Part shown: one piece after another, positions 5,600-31,297 of the stretch
Layout: each line of letters begins with the position of its first letter
Numbering within the stretch: position 1 is the stretch's first letter
Source: a virus
Length of the DNA: 31,297 nucleotides
IMG/VR virus record: IMGVR_UViG_3300042197_003845
Span: 1-31,297 of that record
Reading direction: 5' to 3' (one strand)
Program-made: the position numbers and the translations under genes
The notes under the pieces: generated by a model
The model's input: the letters and a program-made list of their open reading frames with translations, nothing else
The model's database searches: none
Told to the model about the DNA's origin: nothing

Positions 5600-8500
5600 T
5601 TATCACCAACGCTATAATCTATGTCTTCAATATCAGATTCATAGTCATAATTTTGTAGTTCTAGGTCATACTTCTTTATTTCATCTTCAGTTGGATCGGG
5701 AATGTTGGCAGGTTGTTCTCCCTCTGTTTTTGCTGCTGCTCCTCCTGTTGGCATTGGCATTTCGGGGCTTGGGCCAGAAGGTGGTTGTCCACCCGGTTCT
5801 GGCATAGCACTTGGGCCTCCTGCTGTCGCTCCTAGTTCCTGACCTTCCTGACCTTCTTCTTGTCCCGGTATTCCAACTCCAAGAAGTTGTGGGTTTTGTG
5901 CGAGAACTTGTAGCTTTAGGTCTTCAAGCTTTTGAATCTTGAGCCTTGCAAGCATTTCCTCTGCCTCGTCCTCATGATACTTGAGAATTTTCGTGTAAAT
6001 GTCATAATCTGACATAAGTTGTCCAGACTTGAGAGTTCCTGCATTTCCGTATCTAGCGTTCACAACTTCTGCACGGGAAAGTTCTCTCCAATCGCTTGGC
6101 GGTGTCATCTTGATTCTTAGATCACGATAATGTTCTTGAGGATACCCTCTCAGGGCAAGATGTCTTTCTGCTAATTCAAGAAGTCCGTCCTCAAAGTTGC
6201 TTTGCAGTCTTTCAATCATTCTTGCAAATTTTACATCTTGTGAAGACAATGTAATTCTTGTTGCGTTTGCATCTTCATTATTGAAATAATTCTTGGGGAA
6301 ATTGAGTGCTGTAAGAAGTTTGTTTCTGAAGTAGACTGCATCATCAATTTCGCCAAGATTTTCAGCGCCGGGAAGTGTGTCTATTCTTGTTCCGCTATTG
6401 GGCCTGATTGGCAACCAATAGTCTTCGTCTTGCGCTGGTGGCATCCATCTTTCATCAACTTGGTTTGCTCCTGTGCTTCCGCTATTGTTTGCTATCTTTC
6501 TTTTCCTGAATTGATCCTTCAAACGATCCATGAATGCTTCAGCCTTAAAAGGAGGTAATTGCCCTACATCTATATAAAATACCCGCCTCTCAGGCGCTCT
6601 CGTGTTATGCGAGCAGGTGCCATTTACCACAAAATTATGGGGTTTTCCGTCAGCTACTGTGATGTCATAAACCCTTTCAACACCATCTGGTTTTACTGAC
6701 CAAATATTTTCATATTGTGGTAATTCACGATGACTTATTGTAACATTCCAACTTTCTGTTGGTTTCATTTTTCTTGTTGGTGTTATGTTGTGTCCACCTT
6801 TTCTTTTTCTGTTTCCGATCTTTCCGCTACAAAGTCCAATGCTGTGCCATATTTCTTTTATGTCTTCTACAAGATTTTTGTTGCAAAGTTCGATTGTTGA
6901 GAACCACAGTCCAGACTTAGTGTGTCTTTCGCATCCATCAGCGTCTGAAATACCTTCTACTAGTGCTTTTCTGATTGATTTATCAGCATTGAAAGCCCAA
7001 CTTGGTATTCTCTTCTTATACTTGTTTGGAATATAACCAAGAGCTAAAAATACTTGACAAGCGATTTTGGATGAAACCATCCATTTTCCAACTACTGGAT
7101 TTTGGTTTCTTTTGTCTTTATGGAATGATACTTTTCCGAAGTATTTTTTAAGTAGATTTTTATAATATAGATTAAGCTGTTCATCGGTAGATGATGCAAA
7201 CCCTATTTGATTTCCGTGAACGAGCAATCCATCTCCAAGAAGGAATCCAAACAATCTTGCAAAGTCCTCATCGACTATTGATGGAAGGTTGATTCTTTCT
7301 GGATTAATTTCGCATTTATTGCAAATAATTATATCTTCATCAGAAAGATTGTAATTATTTTTGAATATATGGATGTCATTTTCAGAAATGGTTTTCCCAA
7401 GTTGTTTTTCATTTTTGTTGATTTTTTCTTTTCCAGATTCTGTTAGTGTGTAGCGTATTTCGCCAAAAATTCTTGGAATTTCTACTGGTACTGATTGATT
7501 ATTGATTACATTGACAAATTGGTCGCCATTTTTGATATCTTGGAGGTCAACATATTGAACTATGCCTTTTCTGTTAATGAGCATTGGGTGTGTTTTTGTG
7601 CCACGAATTTCAATATGTTGTGATTGTGCTTTGAGGATTTCCTGTTCTCCGTTATCAATCCAATCTGTAACAGAAGTTTCGCTTTGTTGTCCACCGGGAA
7701 GAACGCAGTAAACATTATCATTTACCTTGATGTCCTTGATATATTTGTAACCTTCTGTCGTTCTTACTCTGCTTTCTCCTGTTAAGCAAAGACGATAAAC
7801 AACCATAGCATCTTCTAGCAATCTAAGGCTATGTGCTGGGCCACGGGCTGGTTCTACTAGGCTTTGGCCGTATGGGTAGAATGTTTTTCTATCATCTCCA
7901 ATTCTGAAGTGAACTACTTGGCTTGGGGCGAATCTTATAGCTGTTGTTTGGTTGAGTTCTGTGTCAGTAAGTTCAGATGGAGAGCCTCTTACTATTGCTT
8001 GATAATCGGGGCCTTCTTTGGATTGTTGGAATTCAACTACTCTTCCTTTTACTGTTTCGATTCTGTACATAGTTTCAACAGGAAGTGGAAGGCAGCGATA
8101 GATTCCTTCTTTTGGATTTTCTGGATTGATGACAATTTCGACAAAGTGGTCTCCAAAAATGCAAAGATTTTTGAACCAAGTCCATCCATGTCTATTGAGG
8201 TTGAGCATTTTCCTGTTGAGGAAAAGAAATTCTATTTCTTCCTTGATTTCTGAGTTTTCTGTTGAAACCTTGAATATGTTGCCGTTTTCATCTTTTTGGC
8301 AGTTGTGGAGTATTACTGATTCTGTGGCGAAGCATTTGTGTTTTTCTACTGATAGGTCATAAACATCTTGTTCGGATGCGGGATATGCTCCCACAACTCT
8401 TCTTGTGTCTCCTAGTCCATGAAGTCTTTTAATTTCCCTGTATGCGAAACCTTCTTTGTGTAGGCGATCTTCAATAGTGTGCCAATCTAGTTCTATTTGT

Positions 8501-9288
8501 TCTGAAATTTGTCGTGTTGTGAGTCCGCCACCTATCATTCGACAGGCACGATTCACGATTTGATATTCAAGTGATGTTTTACCTGTTTTCCAGTCTTCGA
8601 TGAATTGTTTTTCGTGCATCCATCCTTTGTTGAATGATAATATTCTTGGGTATTGTGAGTGTTTTAGTTTATTTATATTTGTTTGTGCAGGAACTCTATA
8701 GAATGGCATGAGTTCGTCACCAAACTTTAGTTTTCCTGTTTCTGTCCAAGTTCCATTTTTTAGAAGAACACGATGGTCTTCAGTAGCTGTGTATGTTGTG
8801 CCATTGTCGAGTGTTATTTTGATTGTTGGTGCCTTTTTGACAATTCTGGGGTCAAAGGCCCAACCTAGGGTGAAGTCTTTTTTTTCAAAGTCGTAGCAGT
8901 AAACGAGAAATCTTTCATCTTTCTTGGTTTCGGCAAGTTCTTTGATGGTGATGAATCCGAAAGGTGTGGCTATTTTGGTGTCACCTGAAATGCAAGATTC
9001 GTCTGCATAAACTGTCATGGCCATTTCTATTTCTGGCACATTTCTGAGTCTTTCATACTCTTTGTAACGCATGGCACGATTAGACAGGGTAGTTGTGTCT
9101 ATCATGTCATTGGTTTGTCGATAGCTTGACATACCTCCGCTTACTTGTCCGTTGTTGATATCGGCACCAAGAGCTTCTGGTTGGCTGATTCCAGCGGAAG
9201 TGAATTGTCTAGGGTCTTTGCGACTAGACAAAGGGTCTGGTTCAGATGAGTAGCTGAAAAGTTTGAAAAAGTCAGACCAAATTGGCAT
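5596..9288 (-). CDS. 20: Portal vertex protein, gp20-like, containing two inteins
   Basis: Dodecameric portal through which DNA enters and leaves the head. The 1230-residue precursor consists of three exteins (1-98, 330-500, 896-1230) and two inteins (99-329 and 501-895). Removing the inteins leaves 604 residues, near the 524 of T4 gp20. Extein matches to the family include RLRNVPEIEMAMTVYADES before intein 1, and VVYRL joined to TRAPERRVFYIDVGQLPP across intein 2, then YFRNKLLTALNFPKNYF. The tail (about 1120-1200) is rich in Gly, Pro and Glu. Both inteins sit at highly conserved portal positions, so splicing is needed for infectivity. The start has AAGGG eight bases upstream. Intein DNA is more AT-rich than the flanking portal DNA, which suggests later acquisition. 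Confidence 0.95.
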   Translation of the reverse strand: MPIWSDFFKLFSYSSEPDPLSSRKDPRQFTSAGISQPEALGADINNGQVSGGMSSYRQTNDMIDTTTLSNRAMRYKEYERLRNVPEIEMAMTVYADESCISGDTKIATPFGFITIKELAETKKDERFLVYCYDFEKKDFTLGWAFDPRIVKKAPTIKITLDNGTTYTATEDHRVLLKNGTWTETGKLKFGDELMPFYRVPAQTNINKLKHSQYPRILSFNKGWMHEKQFIEDWKTGKTSLEYQIVNRACRMIGGGLTTRQISEQIELDWHTIEDRLHKEGFAYREIKRLHGLGDTRRVVGAYPASEQDVYDLSVEKHKCFATESVILHNCQKDENGNIFKVSTENSEIKEEIEFLFLNRKMLNLNRHGWTWFKNLCIFGDHFVEIVINPENPKEGIYRCLPLPVETMYRIETVKGRVVEFQQSKEGPDYQAIVRGSPSELTDTELNQTTAIRFAPSQVVHFRIGDDRKTFYPYGQSLVEPARGPAHSLRLLEDAMVVYRLCLTGESRVRTTEGYKYIKDIKVNDNVYCVLPGGQQSETSVTDWIDNGEQEILKAQSQHIEIRGTKTHPMLINRKGIVQYVDLQDIKNGDQFVNVINNQSVPVEIPRIFGEIRYTLTESGKEKINKNEKQLGKTISENDIHIFKNNYNLSDEDIIICNKCEINPERINLPSIVDEDFARLFGFLLGDGLLVHGNQIGFASSTDEQLNLYYKNLLKKYFGKVSFHKDKRNQNPVVGKWMVSSKIACQVFLALGYIPNKYKKRIPSWAFNADKSIRKALVEGISDADGCERHTKSGLWFSTIELCNKNLVEDIKEIWHSIGLCSGKIGNRKRKGGHNITPTRKMKPTESWNVTISHRELPQYENIWSVKPDGVERVYDITVADGKPHNFVVNGTCSHNTRAPERRVFYIDVGQLPPFKAEAFMDRLKDQFRKRKIANNSGSTGANQVDERWMPPAQDEDYWLPIRPNSGTRIDTLPGAENLGEIDDAVYFRNKLLTALNFPKNYFNNEDANATRITLSSQDVKFARMIERLQSNFEDGLLELAERHLALRGYPQEHYRDLRIKMTPPSDWRELSRAEVVNARYGNAGTLKSGQLMSDYDIYTKILKYHEDEAEEMLARLKIQKLEDLKLQVLAQNPQLLGVGIPGQEEGQEGQELGATAGGPSAMPEPGGQPPSGPSPEMPMPTGGAAAKTEGEQPANIPDPTEDEIKKYDLELQNYDYESDIEDIDYSVGDK
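6604..7788 (-). other. Portal intein 2 (395 aa) with LAGLIDADG homing endonuclease
   Basis: Protein-splicing element at portal residues 501-895. Block A is CLTGESRVRTTEG with Cys1. Block B is GTKTHPML (intein residues about 63-70). The two endonuclease helices are LFGFLLGDGL (about 179-188) and LVEGISDADG (about 276-285), each with its acidic residue. Block F is RVYDITVADGKPHNF (about 372-386), and block G ends TCSHN, followed by Thr896 as +1 nucleophile. A bipartite LAGLIDADG enzyme would cut intein-less portal alleles and drive copying of the intein. Both active-site Asp residues are intact, so the endonuclease may still work. Confidence 0.95.
8302..8994 (-). other. Portal intein 1 (231 aa), no LAGLIDADG endonuclease
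   Basis: Protein-splicing element at portal residues 99-329. Block A is CISGDTKIATPFG with Cys1. Block B is TATEDHRVLL (intein residues about 69-78). Block F is VYDLSVEKHKCFAT (about 211-224), and block G ends SVILHN with the penultimate His and terminal Asn. The +1 extein residue is Cys330. No LAGLIDADG, HNH or GIY-YIG motif is visible. Instead residues of about 157-185 (LTTRQISEQIELDWHTIEDR) look like a helix-turn-helix. It could be a reduced intein keeping a DNA-binding remnant. All splice residues needed for standard class 1 splicing are present, so it should be active. Confidence 0.92.
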
Positions 9289-12631: not shown

Positions 12632-12652
12632 ATAACTTTTTTTAGATTTTAG

Positions 12653-12952
12653 TTAGTAGTTATCTTCTTCGTCTTCGTCTTCTTCGTCATCGTCCCAATC
12701 ATCTTCTTCATCTTCATCGTCTGACCATTCATCTTCATCATCTTCATCGTCTGACCATTCATCTTCATCATCTTCATCGTCTGACCATTCGTCTTCTTCC
12801 CAAATATCGTCATCGTCATCATCATCGTCGTCATCGTCGTCATCATCATTTTTCCAACCTTCATCTTCATCTTCGTCATCGTCATATGTTTTGGCAGCAA
12901 AAACAGTATTTTCCAAAAGTTTTTCAAATAATTGGTCAAGTTCATGACTCAT
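12653..12952 (-). CDS. Extremely acidic repeat protein (99 aa), gp67-like or DNA-mimic candidate
   Basis: I cannot assign a family by identity. The start MSHELDQLFEKLLEN at 12952 has GAGGAG upstream; longer starts would enter a different context. Residues 1-22 form an amphipathic helix. The rest is almost only Asp, Glu and Trp: a 14-Asp run (about 37-50), then three tandem units of the type EDEWSDDEDD, then more acid. Net charge is strongly negative. The layout, a short helix plus acidic tail, resembles T4 gp67, a small acidic prohead core protein whose fragment stays in the head. DNA mimicry is an alternative. It has its own strong terminator and diverges from the lipoprotein gene. Confidence 0.75.
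   Translation of the reverse strand: MSHELDQLFEKLLENTVFAAKTYDDDEDEDEGWKNDDDDDDDDDDDDDDIWEEDEWSDDEDDEDEWSDDEDDEDEWSDDEDEEDDWDDDEEDEDEEDNY
12701..12796 (-). repeat. 30-bp tandem repeats coding acidic decapeptides
   Basis: Two identical 30-base units occupy 12721-12750 and 12751-12780, with partial copies on each side (12701-12720 and 12781-12796). Each codes one acidic decapeptide (DEWSDDEDDE register). Unit length is a multiple of three, so copy-number changes keep the frame. A separate Asp-codon run follows at about 12808-12849. Confidence 0.88.
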
Positions 12953-13004
12953 GATCAACTCCTCAGAATATGTGCTAGTATTATAACTATCATAGGAGGA
13001 ATTT

Positions 13005-13424
13005 GTGAAAAAAATTATTTTATTTTTGTGTTTTTTTGTTTTTGGGTGTTCTGTGGCACCATTTGTTGTGAGTCCTATTGTTACTGGCGTTATTATGTGG
13101 AAGCAAGGAGAGGCCAAAAAATATTACAATGAAGAAATAGATGTGATCTATCGCTCAGTAAAACATTCCTTGGTAGACTTGGAATATAAGATATTGAAAG
13201 ATGAAAAGGTCAGGGATGGATACTTTATAACATCTGGAGAAAAAGATAAATTTAAGATTAAAATAAGGATGGTCAAAGCTAAAATCACAGAGGTAAGCAT
13301 TCGCATCAATATGATGGGTGACAAGCCATATGCTGAACTTTTATACAATCATATTGATGCGAACACAAACACAATTTATTTTAATGATAAAGGATTGCCT
13401 GTCAAATTAACAGACCTTCCTTGA
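13005..13424 (+). CDS. Small predicted lipoprotein, DUF3568-like
   Basis: A 139-residue protein starting at GTG 13005 behind a near-perfect AGGAGG. The signal sequence MKKIILFLCFFVFGC ends in a lipobox-like VFGC with Cys15 as lipidation site. The mature part has SPIVTGVIMWKQGEAKKYYN (about 23-42), then a small alpha/beta domain with ITEVSIRINMMGDKPYAELLY (within about 94-116). The pattern resembles the DUF3568 lipoprotein group, from memory. It would sit in the host membrane facing the periplasm. Phage lipoproteins often block superinfection or receptors, but nothing in the sequence proves this. Its last 18 bases overlap the convergent metallopeptidase gene. TATTATAACTAT upstream may be the promoter. 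Confidence 0.75.
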   Translation: MKKIILFLCFFVFGCSVAPFVVSPIVTGVIMWKQGEAKKYYNEEIDVIYRSVKHSLVDLEYKILKDEKVRDGYFITSGEKDKFKIKIRMVKAKITEVSIRINMMGDKPYAELLYNHIDANTNTIYFNDKGLPVKLTDLP

Positions 13425-28371: not shown

Positions 28372-28790
28372 AAATTACATCAATAAAAAAAATGCAAGAA
28401 ACATTTGTTGGTAAAGTATGCACAGTTCTGACTGTTGGAGTTGGAAAAAACAACTTTCAAGATCAACAATTCGCAGACTTTTTTACTGGAATAGTTGATT
28501 CAATAGATGAGGATGGAATTTTTACAAGACATAGTTTGACTGGATGTAAAAACTTTTATGCTATGAACCATATTGTTGGAATAATGGAAGAGCAAGTCAT
28601 ATGCGAAGACAATCCTGAATATCAAAATATTGTCAATGAAGTTAAAAATGCTCCTGAACAAAAAAAACCTATGGTATTAGGTGTTGACCCAAAAGCATCA
28701 CCCTATATTGATCCAGTTTTACTGGCACAATTGTCAAAACAAGCACAAGACTTCAATAAAAAAATGGTTGGTAAAAATCATTCATCATAA
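28368..28790 (+). CDS. Unknown protein with small beta domain (140 aa)
   Basis: No named family. Residues of about 10-80 look like a compact beta barrel (FVGKVCTVLTVGVGKNNF, then FADFFTGIVDSIDEDGIFTR, HIVGIMEEQVI), somewhat like SH3 or Sm folds. The C-terminal 55 residues are polar with EQKKPMVLGVDP and a helix (DPVLLAQLSKQAQDFNKKM). It is translated from the same transcript as the oxygenase-like gene (ATGA overlap). Its last 13 bases overlap the convergent 488-residue gene. Confidence 0.68.
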   Translation: MKITSIKKMQETFVGKVCTVLTVGVGKNNFQDQQFADFFTGIVDSIDEDGIFTRHSLTGCKNFYAMNHIVGIMEEQVICEDNPEYQNIVNEVKNAPEQKKPMVLGVDPKASPYIDPVLLAQLSKQAQDFNKKMVGKNHSS

Positions 28791-30244
28791 AGTTTATGAA
28801 TAATTTTGCCTAGTAAATTTGCCATATCCCTGAAATTTTCAATTCCCGAATATTCTTCAGTATATTTTTCTCTAAATCTTTCTGGAATATTTTCTATTGA
28901 TGTTTTTGTTAAATTATTGATCATTTCACGAAACTGAGGAAAACTTTCCGGTAAACCATCATAAGCATTTTTTATATTATCTGTCAATAATTCATGGGCT
29001 TCTAAATATCCAATTAATTTTTTTGCAGTTTTAATATCTTTTTCAGATGAATTTTTAACTTCTTGTGGCTGTAAATCTGGTTTTCTTGTCTCTGAATCTG
29101 GTTTTCTTGTCTCTGAATCTGGTTTTCTTGTCTCTGAATCTGGTTTTCTTGTCTCTGAAGGAGTAATACTTGGACTTGGCGATTTCTTTTTCTTCTCATG
29201 AAAACTTCTAATTCTACTATCCAAATCATCTTTTGACTGAATTGGATTATTTTGCAACTCGACCCTTCCTTGATCTAACAAATAATCGAAAGAACTTTTA
29301 TTTTTGTTTTTTTGATTTGGCAAAATTCTTTTTAAAATATCTCTTCTTGGATCGCCTATTCGTAATATTTGTGGATAAGCAACACCATGAAGTGCTGCCA
29401 TTGAACCAGTTCTAAGATTTCTCGGAGATATACCACCACCATATTTATTCCAAGCATCCTTTTCATCATCAGACAAGTCATCCCATTTTTTATCTTCAGT
29501 AGGAGGTGTTGTATAACTAAATTCTTTTGGTCTGATATTTGTTGATTTTTTTTCTGGGAGCGTTTCAGGTTCTTCTGAAGGTTCTACTTTAGGTTCTTCT
29601 TTTGCAATAGGAGGTGTTTCTGTTTTAATCTCTGGTTTTGCAGAACCGCATATTTTGGCTTTATCCTCAGGAGAAAGGCTATAACAAAGTTCTGGCATTT
29701 TGAACTTTTCTGTATGTTGAATAAGTATTTTTTTTAGATTTGATTTTAGTTCTTCAGCATGTCTATTTATTATTTGAAACAATCTTAAATTTGATTGATT
29801 ATCTTCATTTAAATTGCATTCAAGATGATCGAACATTTCCCTAAGAATTTTATAGTCCTTGAGCGTAAAGTTCATTTCATTTTTGGAGGGCATTAAATAG
29901 GGTTTTACTGTTGTTTTTTCAGGTGACTCATCTTTGTCTGATGGCATGAGATTTGGCTTATTGCTTTTTTTCTGAGAATATTCTTCTTGTTGACCTAAGC
30001 CATAACCATATTTGTTGATAAAATAATATGGATTCCTAGGATCATTGTGGCCATACCAAACATTTGAAAGAAAATTTTTGAATCTGTCCCACAATCCTCT
30101 ATTGCTGGTAACAGTACCTGTCATAATTTCTTTTTGTAATGATGCAATCCAATCATCAACAGTTTTGTCAACCAAACTTGTAATTTGGTTTTTCATGTTG
30201 GAATCAACATTTTCAATTAATGTCGCTTTATATCTTATAAGCAT
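28778..30244 (-). CDS. Low-complexity unknown protein with SETRKPD repeats (488 aa)
   Basis: No family recognised. Residues 1-60 are helical with GLWDRFKNFLSNVWYG. Residues of about 75-120 hold two NLMPS/YLMPS units. Residues of about 195-260 are Pro/Glu/Lys-rich (KEEPKVEPSEEPETLPEKK). Residues of about 262-310 (WDDLSDDEKDAWNKYGGG) look folded. Four perfect SETRKPD units follow (about 367-394), then a helical C-terminus. It reads as several small domains joined by flexible linkers, as in internal or surface virion proteins. The start at 30244 lacks a Shine-Dalgarno and has AATATATAAT directly upstream; Met17 is an alternative. Confidence 0.65.
   Translation of the reverse strand: MLIRYKATLIENVDSNMKNQITSLVDKTVDDWIASLQKEIMTGTVTSNRGLWDRFKNFLSNVWYGHNDPRNPYYFINKYGYGLGQQEEYSQKKSNKPNLMPSDKDESPEKTTVKPYLMPSKNEMNFTLKDYKILREMFDHLECNLNEDNQSNLRLFQIINRHAEELKSNLKKILIQHTEKFKMPELCYSLSPEDKAKICGSAKPEIKTETPPIAKEEPKVEPSEEPETLPEKKSTNIRPKEFSYTTPPTEDKKWDDLSDDEKDAWNKYGGGISPRNLRTGSMAALHGVAYPQILRIGDPRRDILKRILPNQKNKNKSSFDYLLDQGRVELQNNPIQSKDDLDSRIRSFHEKKKKSPSPSITPSETRKPDSETRKPDSETRKPDSETRKPDLQPQEVKNSSEKDIKTAKKLIGYLEAHELLTDNIKNAYDGLPESFPQFREMINNLTKTSIENIPERFREKYTEEYSGIENFRDMANLLGKIIHKLYDE
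29074..29157 (-). repeat. Four perfect 21-bp tandem repeats
   Basis: Four identical 21-base units occupy 29074-29094, 29095-29115, 29116-29136 and 29137-29157. Each codes SETRKPD on the minus strand. The copies have no base differences, so the array is recent or kept uniform, and its length may vary between isolates. Confidence 0.95.
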
Positions 30245-30262
30245 ACATTATATATTATCTTA

Positions 30263-30721
30263 TCAAGATTGTTCGCTGATATATTCGCCAATTTTTTTCA
30301 ATGACATAAGACAAGAATCAAATCTATGGAAATCACTACTAATGTATTCTAATGCAATATCATCAAACTTATCTGCTGCTCCTTCTTCAACTTCAAAGTA
30401 AATTGCCTTTCCTCTTTTCCCAACTACTTTGTATTTGTGCATAAGAATATAAGCTGCTGCTCCCAAATCAGTTACAAACCTGTAAAGTGATGGATTAAAA
30501 TTGTACTCGCCAATTTTCTTGAGGCTCATAATGCAAGCATCGAAACGATGAAATTCGCTTGATAGATAGTCTAGTGTTAATTGGTCAAATTGATTTTCAT
30601 TATGTTTGGGATCAAGAACAAAGTAGATGTCCTTGCCTCTTCTTCCGATAACTTTCAAATCATGCATGAGCAAATAAGCGGCAGCGCCCAAATCGCTAAC
30701 ACACTTTTGATTGTACTTCAT
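30263..30721 (-). CDS. Protein made of two copies of a small domain (DUF5659-like)
   Basis: A 152-residue protein formed by an internal duplication. Copy 1 (about 8-73) and copy 2 (about 82-147) share DLGAAAYxLMH, the K-x(2)-GxIYF-type strand region (GRRGKDIYF and GKRGKAIYF), a variable acidic loop, and FHRFD-x-C-x-MSLKKIGEY. The pattern resembles the DUF5659 group seen in phages, from memory. Each domain looks like a helix, a beta-hairpin and a helix. AAAGGC precedes the ATG. It lies between the actin-like gene and the 488-residue gene on the same strand. Function unknown. Confidence 0.75.
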   Translation of the reverse strand: MKYNQKCVSDLGAAAYLLMHDLKVIGRRGKDIYFVLDPKHNENQFDQLTLDYLSSEFHRFDACIMSLKKIGEYNFNPSLYRFVTDLGAAAYILMHKYKVVGKRGKAIYFEVEEGAADKFDDIALEYISSDFHRFDSCLMSLKKIGEYISEQS

Positions 30722-30740: not shown

Positions 30741-31297
30741 TTACTTTGATGTTTCCGCTGCTATGAGACATCCTCTTGCAACGCTGTAAAGAGGATCGGA
30801 TGGCTTGAAGATATTGCCAACTTTGATTGGCAATTCAACCTTGCCAATAGTGTCCTTGAATAATTCTGTAAATCCATTTGGAGAACTGGTTCCACCAGCT
30901 ATCACGACATCAATTTCACCATCAGTTCTTACTGTTTTATTGAAATCGCTGAATCCTTTTTTCAAACCATTCACAGTATGTTCAATCATAAGTTGATATT
31001 GAGTGTGAATAGCTCTTTCCACAAGATTGGTTGCAGGCTTTGCCAAATTAATTTTTGTTTTTTCTTTGTTAATGAAACTAATGCTTTCACCAGTTGCTTT
31101 TGCCGCTTGTCTATCAATCCAGTCTCCTGAATTGACAATAGCAAATGTGAATACAGGAGAACCATACATTGCATAACAAATGTTTACCATTCCCGCACCG
31201 CAATTATGAATAGTAAGTTGTGGCCCACTAAAACTATGATCTTCTTCTACTTGTAAATCATAAACAATTCCTTGATACTCATCATGTTCAATTTTTT
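30741..31297 (-). CDS. Actin-like ATPase (C-terminal part) interrupted by an intein; 5' part outside window
   Basis: The frame is open to the right edge. From 31202 to the stop the product is an actin/HSP70-fold C-terminal part: CGAGMVNICYAMYGSP with the second phosphate loop, VNSGDWIDRQAAKATGE, then VVIAGGTSSPNGFTELF as the adenosine motif, and a final helix SVARGCLIAAE. Phage actin-like proteins build filaments for DNA segregation or positioning. Before 31202 the frame reads as the end of an intein. A Met at 31190 would give a 149-residue fragment, but that is not the true start. The exact family (ParM, MreB or other) cannot be told from this part. Confidence 0.82.
   Translation of the reverse strand, partial: KIEHDEYQGIVYDLQVEEDHSFSGPQLTIHNCGAGMVNICYAMYGSPVFTFAIVNSGDWIDRQAAKATGESISFINKEKTKINLAKPATNLVERAIHTQYQLMIEHTVNGLKKGFSDFNKTVRTDGEIDVVIAGGTSSPNGFTELFKDTIGKVELPIKVGNIFKPSDPLYSVARGCLIAAETSK
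31203..31297 (-). other. C-terminal end of a third intein, in the actin-like gene
   Basis: The translated segment contains GIVYDLQVEEDHSF, a textbook intein block F, and ends QLTIHN, a block G with penultimate His and terminal Asn, directly followed by Cys as +1 nucleophile. The intein's N-terminal part and any endonuclease lie outside the window. It interrupts the conserved phosphate-binding loop of the actin-like protein. Confidence 0.9.

Follow-up and report, generated by a model that had tools for sequence, protein, structure and literature searches.

A class-1 intein in the phosphate-2 loop of a phage volactin-family actin gene

Introduction

Does a phage record that breaks off at the end of an intein, directly in front of an actin-like sequence, mark a true insertion in an actin gene, and if so, how would the element have reached that site? 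The window (the whole stretch of DNA that was analysed, an IMG/VR record of 31,297 bp classed as linear) encodes T4-like head genes, namely a gp20-type portal, a head maturation protease and the large terminase, and its right edge lies within the frame in question. Inteins inserted in the ATP-binding motifs of phage proteins are well known (PMC5050341). We conclude here that a class-1 homing intein almost certainly interrupts a phage volactin-family actin gene, and that the feature at the window's edge is its C-terminal end.

Results

The intein end and its missing half

On the minus strand, the frame from 31295 to 30741 reads KIEHDEYQGIVYDLQVEEDHSFSGPQLTIHN^CGAGMVNICYAMYG, followed by 139 further residues and a stop at 30741 (Table 1). 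Block F at the window end is VYDLQVEEDHSFSG and block G is HN. The Pfam model Intein_splicing matches this fragment of the intein weakly. The C-extein matches the Pfam family Volactin (PF25216) with E = 1.7e-30 and 107 bits over profile positions 173-321 of 321, and it therefore corresponds exactly to the C-terminal half of the actin. The earlier note on this DNA had proposed a block F/G intein end followed by Cys in front of an actin C-terminal half, and both the frame and the Pfam match bear this out, with correct coordinates. An actin start just before 31202, which would have spoken against its reading, was not found: intein-free relatives extend about 180 residues further upstream, and the ATG at 31190, considered as such a start, was rejected as internal for the same reason. 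Rfam and tRNA scans of the window gave no matches. Elsewhere in the record, tandem short repeats encoding SETRKPD lie at 29067-29157 on the minus strand, within a 488-aa ORF (28778-30244), and a 154-aa ORF at 12649-13117 (minus strand) is extremely rich in Asp and Glu and of low complexity.

Table 1. Features of the window discussed in the text, with positions, strand and supporting evidence.
Feature	Position	Strand	Evidence
Portal intein 2: 395 aa with LAGLIDADG, ends HN^Thr, portal ORF aa 501-895	6604..7788	-	LAGLIDADG_3 + TIGR01443
Portal intein 1: 231-aa mini-intein without LAGLIDADG, portal ORF aa 99-329	8302..8994	-	TIGR01445 intein N-terminal region
152-aa gene immediately following the actin; one domain, present twice in tandem	30263..30721	-	conserved operon partner
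C-extein: C-terminal half of Volactin-family actin, 153 aa + stop	30741..31202	-	Pfam PF25216
Cys+1 codon TGC, first C-extein residue, second splice nucleophile	31200..31202	-	sequence
Exact overlap with contig L073	31171..31297	.	127/127 bases identical
Intein C-terminal 31 codons (31203-31295; blocks F + G, ends ...TIHN)	31203..31297	-	reading frame; rest of intein in L073

Taken alone, the window has neither block A nor the endonuclease part of the intein. An exact pattern search with its terminal bases retrieved a single other contig, L073 (IMGVR_UViG_3300042197_004283, 7,034 bp), and the join rests on a 127-bp exact overlap between these two contigs rather than on a single contig. The minus-strand frame 3-1679 of L073 holds, without a break in frame, the actin N-terminal half, the whole intein and the first residues of the C-terminal half. 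The N-terminal half comprises 182 residues (MASHGFDCGTYN...YTGIAVS), matches Volactin PF25216 with 91.9 bits over profile positions 3-172, and runs directly into CLCPGTKIYT, which is block A. The intein is complete in L073 at 367 aa, the part beyond the window end being L073:33-1133 on the minus strand. The earlier note had advised reading the adjoining sequence for Cys1 with block A and for a homing endonuclease, and had treated a missing N-terminal intein block as grounds for dropping its claim; all of these elements are present in L073. Family searches assigned no known function to the L073 genes upstream of the actin.

Both contigs end at the same spot. A de Bruijn assembler run with k = 127 would, we infer, leave neighbouring contigs sharing exactly 127 bases at a branch, which suggests a common assembly for the window and L073 and the presence of related variants side by side in the sample.

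Architecture of the intein

A Pfam search of the joined precursor finds Volactin, LAGLIDADG_3 and Intein_splicing. LAGLIDADG_3 (PF14528) matches in two stretches (E = 7.7e-12), and Intein_splicing scores 33.0 bits, just under its cut-off of 35.8. The two LAGLIDADG motifs of L073, RLIGYFLADGS and LLAGLIRGDG, both carry the expected acidic residue. Twelve distinct complete intein-bearing versions of the gene were extracted from the scans described below, and every one of these inteins keeps Cys1, the block B His, two LAGLIDADG motifs with Asp, and blocks F and G. The Cys1 found in L073 and in 12/12 extracted inteins is that of class 1, as is the in-frame insertion with intein-free alleles colinear on both sides. 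Block B reads FVDNHE[LI]YV in all members, with the His kept and Val in place of the usual Thr of TxxH, and blocks F and G read VYDLQVEEDHSFSGPQLTIHN^C in the window, that is, His-Asn and then Cys+1, a pattern shared by all members. A Hint domain of a kind other than an intein was also considered; it was rejected in view of the complete block set, the Cys+1 and the colinear empty alleles.

Protein splicing by the window intein is probable from these motifs, and the motifs together with gene-tree discordance point to LAGLIDADG nuclease activity. The AF2 model of the intein, built from four sequences, was poor (pLDDT 58.6) and was not used. Among solved structures, the intein profile matches only the intein endonuclease PI-PkoII (PDB code 2cw7; E = 1.3e-5), over the endonuclease part through to the C-terminus; PI-PkoII differs in host gene and organism and is a distant relative only. 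More generally, the element resembles the LAGLIDADG inteins of mycobacteriophage TerL and portal proteins in that a Hint splicing domain is combined with a two-motif LAGLIDADG nuclease, the insertion lies in a nucleotide-binding motif, and the inteins occur sporadically and spread between phages (PMC5050341). It differs from the TerL and portal inteins in its host, an actin-superfamily ATPase rather than a P-loop ATPase.

The interrupted actin and the insertion site

Among intein-free alleles L002 is the closest, sharing 92.8% identity with the joined extein of the window and L073. It matches Volactin PF25216 with 219.7 bits (E = 9e-65; Pfam gathering cut-off 35 bits) over profile positions 3-321, and the NCBIfam models for MamK and MreB gave 33.6 bits (cut-off 400) and 18.4 bits (cut-off 293), too low for membership. 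The window actin is thus a Volactin-family protein, so that the actin-like gene of the earlier note stands, refined by Pfam to a family that is neither ParM nor MreB. Archaeal volactin-like proteins from Natrinema and Haloarcula plasmids are 33-34% identical to the phage actin over 99% of the length.

Because the actin profile returned only weak actin matches among solved structures by sequence, we turned to fold comparison. An AF2 model of L002 (29 sequences) reached a pLDDT of 88.5 and a pTM of 0.87, and its alignment with VIA-align gave Z = 28.2 for MamK over 294 residues (r.m.s.d. = 3.2), followed by BeeR (Z = 26.5), MreB (Z of about 25) and crenactin (Z = 24.9). We are confident, on the strength of this model, that the L002 actin is predicted to adopt the actin fold.

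When the insertion site is aligned with E. coli MreB, the window's IAVS^CGAGMVN falls on MVVDIGGGTTE, the phosphate-2 motif, in agreement with the earlier placement of the intein in the nucleotide-binding loop. A Ser replaces the phosphate-2 Asp of MreB in both phage and haloarchaeal volactins (L002:7443-8447, S182; L180:2498-3529; L181:2495-3520), and this exchange may point to a change in ATP hydrolysis. The Natrinema and Haloarcula proteins share the unusual SFGAGM phosphate-2 motif, with Ser for the usual Asp, and volactin of Haloferax volcanii (VolA, HVO_2015) and its haloarchaeal plasmid homologues belong to the same Pfam family PF25216 over their full length. Dynamic filaments of the H. 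volcanii protein have been observed in vivo (PMC10869688). The phage proteins differ from these in being phage-encoded, in having a conserved small partner gene downstream and in carrying an intein in some cases, and a filament role for them is putative.

Occupied and empty alleles

Scanned with the C-extein, IMG/VR yielded 70 loci, nearly all of them intein-free. Wherever sequence in front of the site was available, the locus ran into the actin N-terminal half, with the exception of L060, L061, L067 and L071, which carry a full in-frame intein; the intein-free alleles are otherwise colinear with the interrupted ones. Scanning with the intein gave 16 loci. In 15 of them (some being contigs found before) this intein again interrupts a volactin-family actin; the remaining one, L089, matches weakly and only in part, in a different, IMP-dehydrogenase-like protein. 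On this 310-kb virus contig, the insert at L089:4473-5318 is another one, whose intein N-terminal part is distantly similar, and it starts inside the IMP-dehydrogenase-like gene. In all twelve complete versions the insertion lies at the same codon boundary, Ser^Cys. The rarity of inteins in phage actin-like genes, as the earlier note had it, thus holds among close relatives, but across divergent phage volactins the intein forms a recurrent allelic family.

How the intein came to be distributed in this way was judged from extein and intein identities and from a maximum-likelihood tree of 61 exteins. On this tree, the intein state needs seven changes, possibly a mix of gains and losses, of which at least six are forced by well-supported branches. 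The inteins of L078 and L082 are 52-58% identical to the rest and their exteins only 32-39%; L085 compared with L060 and L067 shows 75% identity for the intein and 62% for the extein. That inteins are closer to each other than their exteins, together with at least six forced gains or losses, indicates, as far as sequence can tell, repeated homing of the intein into the same site of phage volactins. It could alternatively be an old, vertically inherited resident of these genes that was lost many times and whose endonuclease is no longer active, an explanation that we consider unlikely. Such a history would accommodate the L060/L067/L079 clade, in which the inteins are about as similar as the exteins (about 70-79%), and likewise L090, which of the intein-bearing relatives stands nearest to the window intein (72% for the intein, 73% for the extein). 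It would also accommodate the comparison of the window lineage with L002, in which no co-conversion gradient is visible around the site. It does not explain why the inteins of divergent actins (L078, L082, L085) are clearly closer than their exteins, or why nuclease motifs and frames are intact in all members, which would be unexpected after long inactivity; moreover, the window allele and intein-free L002 are sisters on the extein tree, at 93% identity.

Cys+1 occurs in 12/12 intein-bearing alleles and in 8/47 of the intein-free ones, among which Phe dominates, so the gain of the intein in the window lineage most likely also changed the +1 codon.

L090 was the only full-length match in a search of genome contigs. 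A cellular (bacterial) home of the gene was considered on this account and is not supported, since L090 also encodes a phage portal in an uninterrupted 1259-aa frame and is therefore a phage contig. In 39 of 40 other sampled genomes of L090's order there was no Volactin match, and the remaining one gave a sub-threshold FtsA-like protein. A Neisseriaceae metagenome-assembled genome has L090 (RXKI01000042.1), with its volactin and portal inteins, among its binned contigs, which says little about the host.

The downstream partner gene and the portal inteins

A homologue of the 152-aa gene lies on the same strand a median of 28 bp downstream of the actin in 47 of the 49 distinct actin loci. Family searches with it in Pfam, PHROGs and NCBIfam gave no informative match. 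As a guess by analogy, it could be a candidate filament adaptor: according to the abstract of PMC4446434, AlpC of the Corynebacterium prophage CGP3 is an actin with a partner, AlpA, and its filaments help phage DNA replication. The likeness, which serves as a working analogy only, is that an actin-like protein is encoded by a phage together with a co-transcribed partner; the system differs in that an intein is absent from the abstract's account (PMC4446434).

The earlier count of three inteins within 31 kb is correct, as both portal inteins are real (Table 1). Among 80 portal relatives (L092-L171), the ...HNC C-terminal junction of portal intein 1 is present in every one that covers it, and about 10 of the 80 are interrupted at the site of portal intein 2. 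Portal intein 1 looks fixed in the relatives, unlike the other two, which are sporadic; the three inteins of the record have different histories. G004 and G050 combine actin inteins with doubly interrupted portals, the latter judged by length, and G003 has an actin intein and only the mini-intein in its portal. Portal intein 1 contains a helix-turn-helix-like stretch, and it is unusual for a virion protein to carry a mini-intein that is fixed.

Discussion

The presence and completeness of the actin intein, its precise site, its intact motifs, the empty alleles and the gene-tree discordance can all be read from the DNA, and they are consistent with the following course of events. A single precursor would be translated, made up of the actin N-terminal half, the 367-aa intein and the actin C-terminal half. 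To excise itself, the intein would use Cys1, the His residues of blocks B and F, its terminal His-Asn and Cys+1; Ser182 would thereby be ligated to Cys183, giving back an actin of 335 aa. As the insertion splits the phosphate-2 loop of the ATP site, the precursor is unlikely to be active before splicing and would presumably neither bind ATP nor polymerise. In a co-infection, the two-motif LAGLIDADG nuclease would cut other phages' volactin genes, where these lack the intein, at the conserved site, and repair of the cut gene would copy the intein in, a cycle that the distribution of the family suggests to have been repeated.

An insertion in the ATP site of a filament protein is also where splicing would gate activity, and the element might have been domesticated, with conditional splicing timing actin assembly during infection as a post-translational switch. 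Conditional splicing is described for other inteins (for example PMC5790916, PMC6195587, PMC7360933), and several Cys of this intein, including Cys1, Cys3 and a CC pair, show conservation in a four-sequence alignment, although Cys3 is not found in all twelve. We nevertheless regard such a switch as improbable to a marked degree: nearly all close relatives with the same gene have no intein, so the phage lineage does not need regulation by splicing. If true, it would amount to post-translational control of a viral cytoskeleton. That the window end is an assembly chimera, with the intein end of another gene joined to the actin C-terminal half, would fit the shared contig ends and the inferred k = 127 branch point but is scarcely credible, since at least 11 other loci show the same arrangement in uninterrupted frames, many of them mid-contig (40-235 kb), and for the intein-in-actin family as a whole these uninterrupted contigs refute it.

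The homing intein thus favoured is a canonical one in an apparently new host protein, of the actin superfamily. We found no intein in an actin-superfamily gene in the open-access literature searched, and two jumbo-phage reviews mention neither actin nor inteins as whole words. With this case, the actin superfamily apparently joins the ATP-binding proteins invaded by inteins. The same-site allelic series extends across very divergent phage actins and lends itself, as a natural system, to studies of how inteins home between large phages and to tests of whether splicing gates filament assembly. Volactin, known from haloarchaea as an actin of cell shape, is also represented by a large, conserved branch among uncultivated large T4-like phages, accompanied by a nearly fixed partner gene, which makes the role of volactin in phages directly testable.
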